A stretch of 64,000 nt of DNA from positions 62,001 through 126,000 of the forward strand of contig JACTMI010000028.1 of NCBI GenBank assembly GCA_014584695.1. Direction: 5' to 3'. The position numbers were made by a program, and so were the translations under genes. Origin of the DNA: Acidobacteriota bacterium. Its GTDB lineage: Bacteria > Acidobacteriota > Thermoanaerobaculia > Multivoradales > JAGPDF01. Under the pieces are notes generated by a model. It saw only the letters and a list, made by a program, of their open reading frames with translations, made no database searches and had not been told where the DNA came from. This document shows positions 32,841 through 39,356 of the stretch, piece after piece (the stretch's first letter is position 1; each line of letters starts with the position of its first letter).

Positions 32841-32861
32841 CGATCCGTGCCCGAGGCAACC

Positions 32862-35402
32862 ATGTCCCTGCCACGATCCGCTCTCGCTCTGTTCGCCGCG
32901 CCGCTGGTCCTGGCGCTCGGATGCGCTTCATCGCCGCCGGCTGCCAGCCCGGTCGCCGGACCGGTCGCCGAGCGCGCCGGCGGTGCGCTCGACCGATTGT
33001 CCGGGCTGGAGCGCCGCGCCGGCCTGATCGACCTCTACCTCGACCGGAGCACGGGGAAGCTGCTGGCGCTGCTGCCCGAACCCGACGCCGGCGGTCGCAT
33101 CGGCCGCTTCCTCTACGTCGAGGGGATCCTGACCGGCCTCGGCTCGAACCCGGTCGGGCTGGACCGTGGCCAGCTCGGCGCGACGCTGGTGGTCGATCTA
33201 CGGCTCCTCGGGCCGCGGTTCCTGATCGAGGCGCAGAACCTCCGCTACCGCGCCGGTACTGCCGATGCGGACGAGGTCGCCGCGGTGCGCGAGTCGTTCG
33301 CCACCTCGGTGCTGTGGGCCGGCGAAGTCCTCGCCACCGATCCGGCCGGGCGCCCGCTGGTCGACCTGTCGGGTTTCCTGCTGCGCGACGCCCACGGCGT
33401 GATCCAGCGCCTCGCCGAGACCGGCCAGGGGAGCTTCGCCCTCGACCGCGAGCGCAGCGCCATCGATCTCGAAGCCTGCCTCGCGTTCCCGGCCAACGTC
33501 GAGCTCGAATCCGTGCTCACCTTCTCGGCGTCGACTCCGGGTCCGGAGGTGCGGGCCACCGCGCCGGCGCCGACGGCGGTGACCCTGACGCTCCACCAGT
33601 CCCTGCTGGCGCTGCCGGACGACGGCTATCGCCCCCGCCGCTTCGATCCCAGGATGGGCTCGCACGCGATCGCCTTCGCCGACTATGCGGCGCCGCTCGC
33701 GGGCGAGGTGGAGCAGCGCTGGATCGAGCGGCACCGGTTGGAGAAGATCGACCGTGACGCGGCCCGCTCCGGGGTCCGTCGGCCGATCGTCTACTACGTC
33801 GATCGCGGCGCGCCAGAGCCGATCCGGTCGGCGCTGATCGAGGGCGCGAGCTTCTGGCGCGAGGCCTTCGAAGCGGCAGGTTTCGAGGACGCTTTTCGGG
33901 TCGAGCTGCTGCCGGAGGGGGCCCACCCGCTCGACGCGCGGTACCACGTCATCCAGTGGGTCCACCGCGCGACGCGGGGATGGTCCTATGGCGGCGGCGT
34001 GGTCGATCCCCGAACCGGCGAGATCGTCAAGGGCCACGTCACGCTCGGCTCGCTGCGCGTGCGCCAGGATCGCCTCCTATTCGAGGCGTTGTTGGGCGCC
34101 GAGAAAACCGGCAGCGGCGCTGCGGACGATCCGGTCGAGCTGGCGCTGGCACGCATCCGTCAGCTCGCCGCCCACGAGGTCGGACACACGCTGGGGCTCG
34201 CCCACAACTTCGCCGCCTCGACGCGCGACCGGAGCTCGGTGATGGACTACCCGGCGCCGCTGGTCACGGTCGCGGCCGATGGCTCGCTCGATGTCTCCCG
34301 TGCCTACACCCGCAGCATCGGCGCCTGGGACATGGCGGCGATTCGTTGGGCCTACTCCGAGTTCCCCGACGAGACTGACGAGGCGGCGGAGCTGGAGCGG
34401 ATCGTCCGCGCGACGCTCGAGGCGGGGCAGATCTTCCTCACCGAGGGCGACGCCCGCGCGCCCGGCACGGCTCACCCCGCCGCCAGCCTCTGGGACAACG
34501 GCGGCGACCCGGTCGCTTTCCTGGCCGAGGTCTATCGCGTGCGGGAGCGCGCGCTGGCTCGGTTCGGCGCGCGCAACCTGCGCCCGGGCGTGCCCTTGGC
34601 GCGGCTCGAGGAGACGCTGGCGCCGCTCTACCTCTATCACCGCTTCCAGCTGGTGGCGGCGGCGAAGGCGCTCGGCGGCATCGACTACCGGCACGCGCTC
34701 GCGGGCGACGGCCAGCGGGGCGTCCGCGTGGTCGGCGCGGAGCGGCAACGGCGTGCGCTCACGCTCCTGCTCGCCGCCCTCGAGCCCAAGTTCCTGGACC
34801 TGCCCGACGAGGTCCTCCGCCTGCTGCCGCCTCGCCCGCCGGAGCATCCGGAGAGTCGCGAGCAGTTCGGGGCGCGGACCCGACCCGCCTTCGACGCGCT
34901 CGGCGCGGCGGCGACCGCGGCGGACCTGGCGCTCGGCGCGCTCTTCGAGCCGGCACGCGCCGCGCGCCTGGTCGACTTCCACCGCCGCGACGCCGAGTTG
35001 CCTGCGCTCGAGGAGGTGCTCGAGCGGACGGCGGCCGCGGTATTCGCGGACACGACGCAGCTGCCGCCGCGCCAGGTCGAGATCGCGCGTGTCGTCCAGA
35101 GCGCGCTGGTCGATCGTTGGATCCAGCTGGCGCTCGACGCTGCGGCGGCGCCGTGGGTGCGCGCCCGCGTCAACGGGGCGCTCAGCAACCTGTTGCAGGC
35201 GATCGACAAGATCGAGCCCATCGACGCCGGCGAGAGGGCTCAGTTGGCGGCGCTCGCCGCCGACATCGGCCGCCATCTGGCGCGGCCAGAACCACCGGCG
35301 GAGTCGCCACGAGCCGCTCGACCGGCGCCACCCGGCGAGCCGATCGGAGCGACCGCGGCCGGGCTCGGACGGGGAGCGTGCGACGCCGGGGCCTGGCCCT
35401 GA
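32862..35402 (+). CDS. zinc-dependent metalloprotease lipoprotein (zincin; DUF5117/DUF4953-like)
   Basis: The protein has about 846 residues. A lipoprotein signal (LALFAAPLVLALGC) precedes a long N-terminal beta domain and a zincin catalytic domain with the extended motif HEVGHTLGLAHNF (first His near residue 438) and the Met-turn region SSVMDYPAP. That makes it a metzincin-like endopeptidase anchored to the envelope. The helical C-terminal region is large. Start options are ATG 32862 (GAGG five bases upstream) and GTG 32847. Substrates are unknown. The glutaminyl cyclase gene begins 25 bases before its end. Confidence 0.85.
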   Translation: MSLPRSALALFAAPLVLALGCASSPPAASPVAGPVAERAGGALDRLSGLERRAGLIDLYLDRSTGKLLALLPEPDAGGRIGRFLYVEGILTGLGSNPVGLDRGQLGATLVVDLRLLGPRFLIEAQNLRYRAGTADADEVAAVRESFATSVLWAGEVLATDPAGRPLVDLSGFLLRDAHGVIQRLAETGQGSFALDRERSAIDLEACLAFPANVELESVLTFSASTPGPEVRATAPAPTAVTLTLHQSLLALPDDGYRPRRFDPRMGSHAIAFADYAAPLAGEVEQRWIERHRLEKIDRDAARSGVRRPIVYYVDRGAPEPIRSALIEGASFWREAFEAAGFEDAFRVELLPEGAHPLDARYHVIQWVHRATRGWSYGGGVVDPRTGEIVKGHVTLGSLRVRQDRLLFEALLGAEKTGSGAADDPVELALARIRQLAAHEVGHTLGLAHNFAASTRDRSSVMDYPAPLVTVAADGSLDVSRAYTRSIGAWDMAAIRWAYSEFPDETDEAAELERIVRATLEAGQIFLTEGDARAPGTAHPAASLWDNGGDPVAFLAEVYRVRERALARFGARNLRPGVPLARLEETLAPLYLYHRFQLVAAAKALGGIDYRHALAGDGQRGVRVVGAERQRRALTLLLAALEPKFLDLPDEVLRLLPPRPPEHPESREQFGARTRPAFDALGAAATAADLALGALFEPARAARLVDFHRRDAELPALEEVLERTAAAVFADTTQLPPRQVEIARVVQSALVDRWIQLALDAAAAPWVRARVNGALSNLLQAIDKIEPIDAGERAQLAALAADIGRHLARPEPPAESPRAARPAPPGEPIGATAAGLGRGACDAGAWP

Positions 35403-36208
35403 GCCGTTGCCGGCTGGCGGTTCTGGCCGGGGCCGCCGCCGTGGTCGCCGCGGCGTGTGGTGGCGTCGAAGCCCGTCGAGCGACCGCGGCGCCGGGGGAT
35501 CTCCAGCCACCGCCGCCGCGACTCCCGGTCCGCGTGGTGGCGGTTCACCCCCACGATCCTAGTGCCTTCACGCAAGGGCTGCTCTGGCACGGTGGCAGGC
35601 TCTACGAGTCGACGGGTCTCGCCGGAGCGTCGCGTCTGCGCGAAGTGGAGATCGCGACGGGCAGAGTCCTGCGCGAGGTCGCGCTCGATCCGACCGAGTT
35701 CGGCGAGGGGCTGGCGAGAGTGGGGGAGCGGCTGGTTCAGCTCACCTGGCGCAACGGGCGAGCCCGCCTCTGGCGCATGGCGGATTTCGCGCCCCTCGGC
35801 GTGCATGCCTACGAGGGCGAAGGGTGGGGGCTGACGTTCGACGGCACCGACCTGGTGCAAAGCGACGGCAGCGAGCGTCTGACTTTCCGCGACCCCGAGA
35901 GCTTCGCACCGCGCCGCACGCTCACGGTCACCCGCGGCGGCGCGCCGCTCGCTTACTTGAACGAGCTCGAGTTCGCGCGCGGTCGGATCTTCGCCAACGT
36001 CTGGATGAGCGAGGAGATCGTGGCCGTCGATCCGGCGACCGGCGTGGTGCTGGCGACCTACGAAGCGCCTGGGCTGCTGGCGCGGGACGAGGCGGCGGCG
36101 GCGGACGTCATGAACGGCATCGCCTGGAACCCCGAGAGCGACCGCTTCTATCTCACCGGCAAGTGGTGGCCGAAGCTGTTCGAGGTCGAGCTGCCGCCGA
36201 CGCCCTGA
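35378..36208 (+). CDS. glutaminyl-peptide cyclotransferase (propeller type)
   Basis: The enzyme turns N-terminal glutamine of peptides and proteins into pyroglutamate, capping them. The 276-residue product has a lipobox-like signal (AAAVVAAACGG), so it probably acts as an exported lipoprotein. It has the family hallmarks GEGWGLTFDGTDLVQSDGS, YLNELEFARGRIFANVW, VDPATGVVL and the C-terminal MNGIAWNPESDRFYLTGKWW. The GTG at 35378 overlaps the zincin gene by 25 bases; it was chosen because it alone gives the signal sequence. Coupling to the protease suggests action on cleaved substrates (inference). Confidence 0.9.
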   Translation: MRRRGLALSRCRLAVLAGAAAVVAAACGGVEARRATAAPGDLQPPPPRLPVRVVAVHPHDPSAFTQGLLWHGGRLYESTGLAGASRLREVEIATGRVLREVALDPTEFGEGLARVGERLVQLTWRNGRARLWRMADFAPLGVHAYEGEGWGLTFDGTDLVQSDGSERLTFRDPESFAPRRTLTVTRGGAPLAYLNELEFARGRIFANVWMSEEIVAVDPATGVVLATYEAPGLLARDEAAAADVMNGIAWNPESDRFYLTGKWWPKLFEVELPPTP

Positions 36209-36285: not shown

Positions 36286-38436
36286 ATGAGCGGAGCAGCG
36301 TGGCAGAGCGCCGAGAGGAGTCGGCAGTTGAGGGTCTTCTCGAGGCGGACGGCCGGCGCCGTGCGGGTCTCGCTGGCGTTGGCGCTGGCCTGCGTGCCGT
36401 CGCTGGCCCAGGAAGCCGGAACCGTCGCCGAAGTCCAGGACATGGCGATCGCCGAGCCCGCGCGCCCGACTCCGGAACGGGTCGAGCGGGCCCTCGCCGA
36501 GGTCTATCCGGCGCTGGTCAACATCACCGCCGTCACCCGCCAGTTCGCCGAAGGGCGCGCCATGCGCTTTCCGAGCGCCGGCAGCGGCGTGATCGTCGAC
36601 GCCGCGGGACACGTCCTGACCAACTTCCACGTCGCCGGCAACACGACGCGCATCCGCTGCACGCTGACCTCGGGCGAAGTGGTGGAGGCGGACATCGTCG
36701 CGCACGATCCGCTGACCGATCTGTCGGTGCTTCGCCTCCGCCTGGAGCGGGCCGGCCGCGCGGCGCCACTCTTCCGGCCGGCGAGATTGGCGGTCGACGT
36801 CGAGCTGTCGGTCGGAGATCCGGTGCTGGCGATGGGCAACCCTTTCGCGCTCTCCTCCTCGGTCACGCTCGGGATCGTCTCGAATCCGCGCCGGGTATTC
36901 ACCGACTTCGCCGCCAGCGAGATCTCGGAAATGGACCTCGGCGACGGCGAGACCACCGGCCGCTTCACGCAGTGGATCCAGCACGACGCCCTGATCCTGC
37001 CCGGCAACTCCGGAGGTCCGCTGGTCGATCTCGAGGGGCGCGTGGTCGGGATCAACCAGCTCGGCGGCGGCGGCATGGGATTCGCGATCCCGGCGCGCGT
37101 CGCCGCCGACGTGCTGCGGCGGGCGCTATCGCAGGAGGGTCTTCGCCGCGGGGATCTAGGCTTGCGGGTGCTACCCGTCGCGAAGCTCGGGAGACTGGCG
37201 GGAGCGCTCGTCTCGGCCGTGCTGCCCGGCTCGGCGGCGGCCGCCGCGGGCGTCGAGCCGGGCGACCTGCTGCTGTCTCTCGACGGCACTCCGGTCACGG
37301 TCCGGTTCTTCGAGCAGGTGCCGGAGCTCTACGAGCGGATTGCCGAGCTCACCGTCGGCGCGGCCGTGAAGCTGGAGATCGATCGCGCGGGGGAGCGGAA
37401 GGTCCTGCCCGCGGTCGTCGACGCGCTCGAACGGACACGCGGCGAGGAGGGGGAGTTTCGCGCCCTCGGGCTTTCCGCCCAGGAGCTGACCGGGCCGATG
37501 GTGCTGGCGCGCAACCTGCCGGTGCGGCGTGGGCTCCTGGTCACCGGGTTGCGGCCTGGCCAGGCCGCCGCGGCTGCGCGGCCCCAGATCCAGGCCGGCG
37601 ACGTGGTCACGGCGCTGGCCGGCCGCGAGGTGGCTCGCCTCGAGGACCTGGAGCGCGCGCTGGCGGTGACGGGCGGTCCCGATCTGCTGATCGAGCTGCG
37701 CCGCGGTGAGCAGCGGTTGATGAGCGTCCTGCGGCTTCCGGATCGCCGCAACGGGCGCCAGGGCGGCGAGCTGCCGAAGGCCTGGTTGGGAGTGCGCACC
37801 CAGGTGTTGACCCCCGAGCTCGCCGCCGCGCTCGGCCGGGCCGGTGAGACCGGCTTCCGGATCACCGAGGTCTTTCCGTGGACCGAGGCTGCGCGCGCCG
37901 GCCTGGAAGTGGGGGACCACCTGCTGGCCCTGGACGGAGAGCCGCTGGACGCCTCGCGCGTCCAGGACGCGGAGGATCTGCGGCGCGCGATCGAGGAGCG
38001 CGGCATCGGCGACCGGATCGAGCTCGAGCTGCGCCGCGGGGAAGCCCATCGGACGCTGGCCGTGACGCTGGAGCCGCGGCCCCTGGGGGCCGAGCAGGCA
38101 CGGCGCAGCCGTCAGGAGGATTTCGAGCTCGCGGTGAGGGATCTGACCTTCCTCGACCGGATCGAACAGCATTGGGAGCGCGAGCAGGCTGGAGTCGTGG
38201 TCACCGAGGTGACCAGCGGCGGCTGGGCGCACATGGCGGGCCTGCGGACGGGAGACCTGGTGGTCAGGGTCGGCACGGTCGAGGTTCCGGATGTCGCCGC
38301 CTTCGAGCGCGCGATGGCCGGCGCGGTGGCGGAGCGGCGGGAGCTGGTGACGCTTTTCCTGCGCCGCGGCCCGCGCACGCACTTCGTCTTTCTGGAACCC
38401 GAATGGCCCGAAGCTCCGGGAGGTGCGGCGCCATGA
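36286..38436 (+). CDS. HtrA/DegP-type periplasmic serine protease with several PDZ domains
   Basis: The 716-residue protein has an N-terminal export signal (SLALALACVPSLAQ). The trypsin-like domain has an intact triad: His115 in LTNFHVAG, Asp145 in DPLTDLSVL, Ser242 in LPGNSGGPLVD. Three or four PDZ-like modules follow (GALVSAVLPGSAAAAAGVEPGD; VTGLRPGQAAAAARPQIQAGD; ITEVFPWTEAARAGLEVGDH; VTEVTSGGWAHMAGLRTGD), against two in DegP. The ATG at 36286 has GGAGGGG upstream and a TACACT box some 30 bases before it. The stop overlaps a catalytically dead paralogue. Confidence 0.9.
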   Translation: MSGAAWQSAERSRQLRVFSRRTAGAVRVSLALALACVPSLAQEAGTVAEVQDMAIAEPARPTPERVERALAEVYPALVNITAVTRQFAEGRAMRFPSAGSGVIVDAAGHVLTNFHVAGNTTRIRCTLTSGEVVEADIVAHDPLTDLSVLRLRLERAGRAAPLFRPARLAVDVELSVGDPVLAMGNPFALSSSVTLGIVSNPRRVFTDFAASEISEMDLGDGETTGRFTQWIQHDALILPGNSGGPLVDLEGRVVGINQLGGGGMGFAIPARVAADVLRRALSQEGLRRGDLGLRVLPVAKLGRLAGALVSAVLPGSAAAAAGVEPGDLLLSLDGTPVTVRFFEQVPELYERIAELTVGAAVKLEIDRAGERKVLPAVVDALERTRGEEGEFRALGLSAQELTGPMVLARNLPVRRGLLVTGLRPGQAAAAARPQIQAGDVVTALAGREVARLEDLERALAVTGGPDLLIELRRGEQRLMSVLRLPDRRNGRQGGELPKAWLGVRTQVLTPELAAALGRAGETGFRITEVFPWTEAARAGLEVGDHLLALDGEPLDASRVQDAEDLRRAIEERGIGDRIELELRRGEAHRTLAVTLEPRPLGAEQARRSRQEDFELAVRDLTFLDRIEQHWEREQAGVVVTEVTSGGWAHMAGLRTGDLVVRVGTVEVPDVAAFERAMAGAVAERRELVTLFLRRGPRTHFVFLEPEWPEAPGGAAP

Positions 38437-39356
38437 ACTCGACTCGACTTCGTCTCCGGCGACTCTGGCCGATTCTCGGGGTGGCGGTTTGCCTCCTCGC
38501 GCTCGCGCGCGGCGCGGGTGCATCCGACGGCGCTGACTACGCGCGACTGCTCGAGCGCGTGGCTCCCGCCATCGTCAACGTCAAGGTAGTGCTCAAGACC
38601 GAGATCGACTTCGGCGGATCGATGCAGGATCAGGAGTCGACCCTGGAGGCGCGCGGCGCACTGGTGGATCCGCGCGGATTGGTCCTGGTCTGGAATTCGC
38701 AGATCTCGGCCGGCCGGCTGCTCGAGGCGGCACGGCAGATGGGTGCCGCCGAGGGCTTCCAGATCAAGATCACGCCGACCGATTTCCGGGTCTCGGTGGC
38801 CGGCCGCCCGAAGGAGTACCGCGCCTTTCTCGCCGGGTCCGATTCCGACCTCGATCTCGCTTTCCTGCAGATCGAGGACGAGATCGAGGCGCCCCTGCCG
38901 GCGATCGACTTCGACGAGGCGCGCCCGGCTCGCCTGGGGGAGACGGTCGTGGGCGTCTCCCGGCTGCTGCCCACCTTCGATCGCGCGGCCTTTTTCGAGG
39001 CCGGCCGCGTGGCCGGCGAAGTTCGCAAGCCACGCCGCGCCTGGGTGCTCGATATCTCCCCGGCACTGCTCGGCCTGCCGGTGTTCAACCTCCGTGGCGA
39101 GCCGGTGGGCGTGGTCGCCACCATTCTCTCGAGCGTCGGCGAAGGGGCCATGCCGGGGGCCGGCATGATGGGGATGTTTCTCGGCGGCGAGGGGCGCGAC
39201 ATCGGCCCCTTGGGCGTCTTCCTGGTTCCCGCGGATCGGGTTCGGGGGGCGTTGACCCAAGCGCGGAAGCGGGCGCTGGAATTGCTGGCCGAGAGGGCGG
39301 CTTCACCCGAGCCGGCGCCGGCGGCGACCGCCGAGCCTTCGCCGCCCCGTCGTTGA
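38433..39356 (+). CDS. catalytically inactive HtrA-like paralogue (pseudoprotease)
   Basis: The 307-residue exported protein (signal residues about 10-31) keeps the trypsin-like core pattern APAIVNVKVVLKTE, SDLDLAFLQIEDE and LPVFNLRGEPVGVV. The catalytic His region reads VLVWNSQIS (no His), and the Ser site reads PALLGLPVFN, with Leu in place of the nucleophile. The Asp region is kept. No PDZ domain is present. The ATG overlaps the stop of the active HtrA, so the two are made together; a regulatory or scaffold role for the active enzyme is inferred. Confidence 0.75.
   Translation: MNSTRLRLRRLWPILGVAVCLLALARGAGASDGADYARLLERVAPAIVNVKVVLKTEIDFGGSMQDQESTLEARGALVDPRGLVLVWNSQISAGRLLEAARQMGAAEGFQIKITPTDFRVSVAGRPKEYRAFLAGSDSDLDLAFLQIEDEIEAPLPAIDFDEARPARLGETVVGVSRLLPTFDRAAFFEAGRVAGEVRKPRRAWVLDISPALLGLPVFNLRGEPVGVVATILSSVGEGAMPGAGMMGMFLGGEGRDIGPLGVFLVPADRVRGALTQARKRALELLAERAASPEPAPAATAEPSPPRR

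Follow-up and report, generated by a model that had tools for sequence, protein, structure and literature searches.

Two overlapping genes within the window (the whole 64,000-nucleotide stretch of DNA that was analysed) probably encode the two subunits of one HtrA-type machine, in which a catalytically dead subunit would serve the active protease as its non-catalytic partner. On balance, we also favour the broader reading that they represent an ancient and near-obligate two-subunit HtrA, forming an undescribed family in three phyla, in which a pair of PDZ domains was passed once from the dead to the active subunit.

The two genes and their products

The features of the pair, all in window coordinates, are given below.

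36286..38436, forward strand: gene 1 (ATG 36286 to TGA 38436), active HtrA with four PDZ domains, 716 aa, N-terminal signal-like segment
36463..37131, forward strand: gene 1 trypsin-like protease domain, residues about 60-282
36628-36630, forward strand: gene 1 His115 codon, catalytic triad
36718-36720, forward strand: gene 1 Asp145 codon, catalytic triad
37009-37011, forward strand: gene 1 Ser242 codon, catalytic triad
37138..37731, forward strand: gene 1 PDZ1 and PDZ2, about residues 285-482
37768..38400, forward strand: gene 1 PDZ3 and PDZ4, about residues 495-705, the module found on the dead protease in the split arrangement
38419..38423, forward strand: Shine-Dalgarno-like GGAGG within the end of gene 1, the gene 2 start lying nine bases on
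38433..38436, forward strand: ATGA overlap of gene 1 stop and gene 2 start
38433..39356, forward strand: gene 2 (ATG 38433 to TGA 39356), predicted HtrA-fold pseudoprotease, 307 aa, signal-like N terminus, without PDZ
38697..38699, forward strand: gene 2 Ser89, at the catalytic His position by alignment
38853..38855, forward strand: gene 2 Asp141, at the catalytic Asp position by alignment, retained
39069..39071, forward strand: gene 2 Leu213, at the nucleophilic Ser position by alignment

From the domain matches (Trypsin_2, E 2.6e-26, and four PDZ) and the AlphaFold model, in which one protease and four PDZ domains make up five folded units behind a disordered segment (residues 1-57), it is clear that gene 1 has four PDZ domains, where a preliminary description of this DNA had counted three or four. 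The triad His115, Asp145 and Ser242, on which that description had based its reading of the first protein as an active HtrA, is present and invariant among 11 order-level orthologues. Gene 1 thus has the make-up of the HtrA/Do family, namely a trypsin-like domain with a His-Asp-Ser triad and C-terminal PDZ domains. Since it scores below the NCBIfam cut-off for the Do family (TIGR02037, 331 against 416 bits), it appears to be a divergent branch of HtrA, and it stands in a clade of its own against generic HtrAs (support 100). It also falls short of the MamE model (NCBIfam NF040960, 149.5 bits against a cut-off of 800). Residues 231-235 of gene 1 (IQHDA, window 36976-36990) precede the nucleophile loop and hold a QHD shared by its homologues, in place of the QTD of common HtrAs; across the order-level orthologues, His233 is invariant.

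The gene 2 product gave a divergent Trypsin_2 match only (E 3e-8), and the domain search found no PDZ in it. Its AlphaFold model is confident (pLDDT 88, pTM 0.82) and has the HtrA fold, as had been supposed from the sequence pattern: the protease domains of HtrA1, Deg5, Deg1, DegQ, DegS and DegP match it with Z of 18-20 at 17-28% identity, and all 994 PDB chains aligned in the structure search reached Z of at least 8. Deg5 (4ic5) ranked second, tied with others (Z 19.5, rmsd 3.3, 191 residues aligned). No curated family covers gene 2, the best NCBIfam match being the Do family with 26 bits against a cut-off of 416; against the MamO model (NCBIfam NF040961) there was no match at E 1, and the protein stops after the protease domain, a TauE-like C-terminal domain being absent. 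Members of the gene 2 family match HtrA models only, with modest E-values (26 of 66 match the Do family).

To compare the catalytic sites, we have placed both genes and their homologues in one joint alignment of 98 rows each, in which about nine genes are present twice. All 98 gene 1 rows keep an intact triad. Among the readable gene 2 rows, the catalytic His is found in 0 of 97 and the Ser in 0 of 96, and the Asp is retained in 64 and lost in about a third. Since neither His nor Ser occurs in any of these rows, gene 2 is best read as a pseudoprotease rather than a protease. The missing His and the Leu in place of the nucleophile, both claimed in the preliminary description, are thus borne out by the alignment, and the intact triad that homologues of the second gene might have shown was found in none of them. 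The Ser is also missing from all 20 of a further set of long-form, more distant gene 2 relatives, one of which has a lone His.

Both proteins start with signal-like segments and are therefore probably exported, and a machine made of them would probably be periplasmic. The window's genome encodes two other HtrA-type proteases with an intact GNSGGP (G000:C23:59174-60256 and G000:C1:242277-243371), and the pair is therefore not its only quality-control protease.

Pairing across three phyla

By scanning the contigs of relatives with gene 1, we have collected 80 named loci from Acidobacteriota, Planctomycetota and Armatimonadota. Most genomes in the survey are metagenome-assembled genomes (MAGs), among them the named relatives from the window's own genus and family, which belong to the Thermoanaerobaculia (Acidobacteriota). 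A gene 2-like frame lies downstream of gene 1 in 69 of the 80 loci, although the copy in L156 is 2.5 kb distant, and five of the other 11 loci run out at a contig end within 700 bases. Whole genomes were checked for seven of these 11 (six cases on longer contigs and one at a contig end), and every one of the seven carries a gene 2 elsewhere, together with a single full-length four-PDZ gene 1; the reading that gene 2 is missing where it is not adjacent was thus rejected. Order-level gene 2 orthologues adjoin a gene 1 orthologue wherever the contig extends.

The phylum-wide counts point the same way. Four-PDZ gene 1 occurs in 32 of 199 Planctomycetota genomes, with gene 2 directly downstream in all 32; gene 2-like matches stand alone in 21 more, many of them in frames of 480-610 aa. 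Among 151 Armatimonadota genomes, 45 have gene 1, with gene 2 adjacent in 39, elsewhere in five and cut off by a contig end in one, and three more genomes with gene 2 only hold pieces of gene 1 just upstream. In the window's class, gene 1 is found in 16 genomes and a gene 2 match in 13; G022 also has an adjacent gene 2, and G029 and G033 carry gene 1 fragments (that of G033 at a contig end). The apparent exceptions to pairing are contig ends or fragments. Fisher values for the co-occurrence (3e-23 and 3e-33) are illustrative only, since the samples are not independent and the values carry no correction for kinship.

The idea that the two genes are always adjacent therefore holds nearly universally for the four-PDZ type (32/32 and 39/45), but not for the five Armatimonadota pairs that are unlinked. 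The overlap of stop and start, rightly described before as an ATGA in the window, had also led to the proposal that the two proteins are made in a fixed ratio. As a conserved property this finds no support, since the genes of relatives are separated by anything from −14 to more than 300 bases and in a few cases are not linked at all.

Gene 2 is the only neighbour of gene 1 that recurs widely across the phyla. In the window, a Met-zincin gene (DUF4953/DUF5117, 32847-35402) and a glutamine cyclotransferase gene (35645-36208) lie upstream, and they are found near the pair only in close relatives. A protein with GYF_2 and AIM24 domains (L078:2877-3896) is encoded directly upstream of gene 1 in L078 and likewise in L079, L080 and L088; it is absent from the window.

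Over 66 pairs, the pairwise distances among gene 1 sequences correlate with those among gene 2 sequences at r = 0.81, to be compared with 0.79 for the two ends of gene 1 itself. This value exceeds the best of 1000 within-cluster permutations (0.68 and 0.71).

Several loci hold more than one dead copy. In Planctomycetota, one active four-PDZ HtrA is followed by four tandem pseudoprotease genes in L101 (11950-15654) and by three in L097 (11955-14788), several of these tandem genes overlapping by a few bases, and in Armatimonadota one active gene is followed by two dead ones (L109). Such multiple dead copies fit a modular non-catalytic subunit.

Other dead relatives stand apart. Dead proteases with PDZ domains and no adjacent active partner occur in L171, L181, L183, L184 and L187, and in L189 (4529-5857) a dead trypsin-like domain is joined in one protein to EF hands and part of a DUF3179. 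In a Planctomycetota group of dead trypsin-like proteins (L173, L175-L178 and L180; frames of about 480-500 aa), an SNQP motif is conserved where the His would stand, the C terminus carries a weak PDZ, and no active HtrA partner of this type is adjacent. Fusions apparent in very long frames (L073, L184) were rejected and read instead as overlapping open frames in GC-rich DNA.

The PDZ pair and the proposed role of the dead partner

In a split arrangement, found in four Acidobacteriota loci (L074-L077) and seven of Planctomycetota (L170, L172, L174, L179, L182, L185 and L186), gene 1 has PDZ1 and PDZ2 only, and two PDZ domains are found on the dead protease beside it. We have scored PDZ pairs against tandem models built from window-type PDZ1-2 and PDZ3-4. 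The pair of 16 split-type dead proteases, five of which have no adjacent active gene, favours PDZ3-4 by +52 to +105 bits, and 12 split-type active partners favour PDZ1-2 by 37 to 91 bits. For 17 generic HtrAs the PDZ3-4 minus PDZ1-2 score is −6 to +25 bits, so that the groups separate with no overlap. A match to the PDZ3 model alone was rejected as proof of a module swap, generic HtrA PDZ domains often having that model as their best match. Because of the tandem-model scores, PDZ3-4 of gene 1 can be equated, at the level of sequence, with the two PDZ domains that the dead partner carries.

In the protease-domain tree, the pseudoproteases form one clade (support 100, which could be inflated by long branches), and so do the active partners, apart from the generic HtrAs (support 100). 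The four-PDZ active form is a single group (support 99), and the bare pseudoproteases group weakly (57). The simplest history would thus be an ancient active-dead pair with two PDZ domains each, followed by one later transfer of PDZ3-4 to the active subunit.

A domain that changes polypeptides while the pairing is kept suggests that both chains act in one assembly, and the swap therefore points to one complex. Gene order alone may reflect shared regulation, and some gene 2 relatives stand without an adjacent active partner; beyond the near-universal adjacency, a partner role is supported by the co-occurrence of unlinked genes, the correlated distances and the swapping PDZ module. We regard it as quite probable that a gene 1-gene 2 complex exists.

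In such a complex, the catalytic protease domain would come from gene 1, as would the four PDZ domains. Gene 2 would contribute an HtrA-fold domain without the catalytic His and Ser, which would occupy HtrA positions together with the gene 1 protease domains, most likely in mixed or stacked trimers. Several residues are conserved specifically in gene 2, namely Glu68 (94%), Arg177 (97%), Asp183 (84%), Pro200 (100%) and Arg201 (94%). By sequence alignment with MucD only, Arg177 and Asp183 can be placed in the region of loop LD, and Pro200-Arg201 in that of loop L3. Both loops belong to the cluster that passes activation between the subunits of DegS, where Arg178 of L3 touches Pro161, Tyr162 and Leu164 in the LD loop of the neighbouring subunit (PMC11642142). 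The gene 2 residues in these regions may therefore serve inter-subunit contact, and gene 2 might set gene 1 activity or substrate handling through the loops that relay activation between HtrA subunits. An allosteric action of the dead subunit on the active one is a tentative proposal; the stoichiometry of the machine, and whether the dead subunit would activate or restrain its partner or hold substrates, are points that we infer.

An unlikely alternative is that gene 2 stands outside the HtrA oligomer as an independent, repurposed ligand or metal binder in the same pathway as gene 1. MamO, whose protease domain has traded catalysis for metal binding (PMC4794232), is a precedent, and some long-form relatives have no adjacent active partner, one of them carrying EF hands; however, the near-obligate pairing with matched rates and the movement of PDZ3-4 between the two polypeptides speak against independence, and the conserved residues of gene 2 include no His pair. 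Rather improbable too is a gene 2 product docked through the PDZ domains as a substrate adaptor or inhibitor of gene 1, outside a protease trimer. The window arrangement would suit this, with four PDZ domains on gene 1 and none on gene 2, but the C termini of gene 2 (SPPRR in the window) are variable and mostly non-hydrophobic, unlike usual PDZ ligands, and in the split arrangement the dead protease bears a PDZ pair of its own. It is very improbable that gene 2 has remained a hydrolase by means of other catalytic residues (the conserved Asp141, Arg177, Glu68 or Asp183): several gene 2-specific polar residues are indeed conserved in 84-97% of rows and Asp141 is mostly retained, yet there is no conserved Ser, Cys, Thr or His set at the nucleophile and base positions, and roughly one row in three has lost the Asp. 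A decaying, functionless duplicate, for which only the lost catalytic residues could speak, is already refuted by long-term conservation, given an open frame with a signal-like start, occurrence in three phyla, invariant and gene 2-specific residues, a single clade and the expansion to four tandem copies in L101.

Relation to known systems

HtrA proteases are textbook homo-oligomers, activated by signals between identical subunits. If the two-subunit machine is real, one subunit would be confined to passing or receiving the signal, the other being able to cut as well, so that cis and trans activation become separable; an uncharacterised gene of many uncultured bacteria would become a testable part of envelope quality control, and pseudoprotease biology would reach beyond the magnetosome case. 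A search of the open-licence literature for an inactive HtrA paralogue in bacteria beyond magnetosomes found nothing relevant.

Bacterial HtrAs are activated in trans between subunits through loops L3 and LD (PMC11642142). DegP, DegQ and DegS resemble gene 1 in fold, triad and PDZ organisation, but they assemble from identical subunits, each with one or two PDZ domains, and have no dead partner. ClpP/ClpR and similar ring proteases combine catalytic and non-catalytic paralogous subunits, sometimes with several dead copies. This active-dead pairing, and the several dead copies as in L101, recall the present system, although the fold and compartment are unrelated.

The nearest precedents are MamE/MamO and Deg5/Deg8, the latter two being partners. 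Deg5 of the plant thylakoid lumen has an HtrA domain without PDZ, and protease activity was undetected (PMC3640471). It is thus like gene 2 in domain make-up but differs in retaining the catalytic triad, and Deg8 has one PDZ where gene 1 has four. In magnetotactic bacteria, the active HtrA MamE works together with MamO, an HtrA-like pseudoprotease; MamO is required for MamE-dependent proteolysis while its own triad is not (PMC4794232). MamO keeps His and Asp, with Thr for Ser, whereas gene 2 has lost both His and Ser, and MamO differs further in its TauE domain, its di-His metal site and its role in magnetite formation. Neither gene 1 nor gene 2 reaches the level of the MamE or the MamO model. 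Compared with MamE/MamO, the gene 1-gene 2 pair spans three phyla, and two of its PDZ domains have changed sides.
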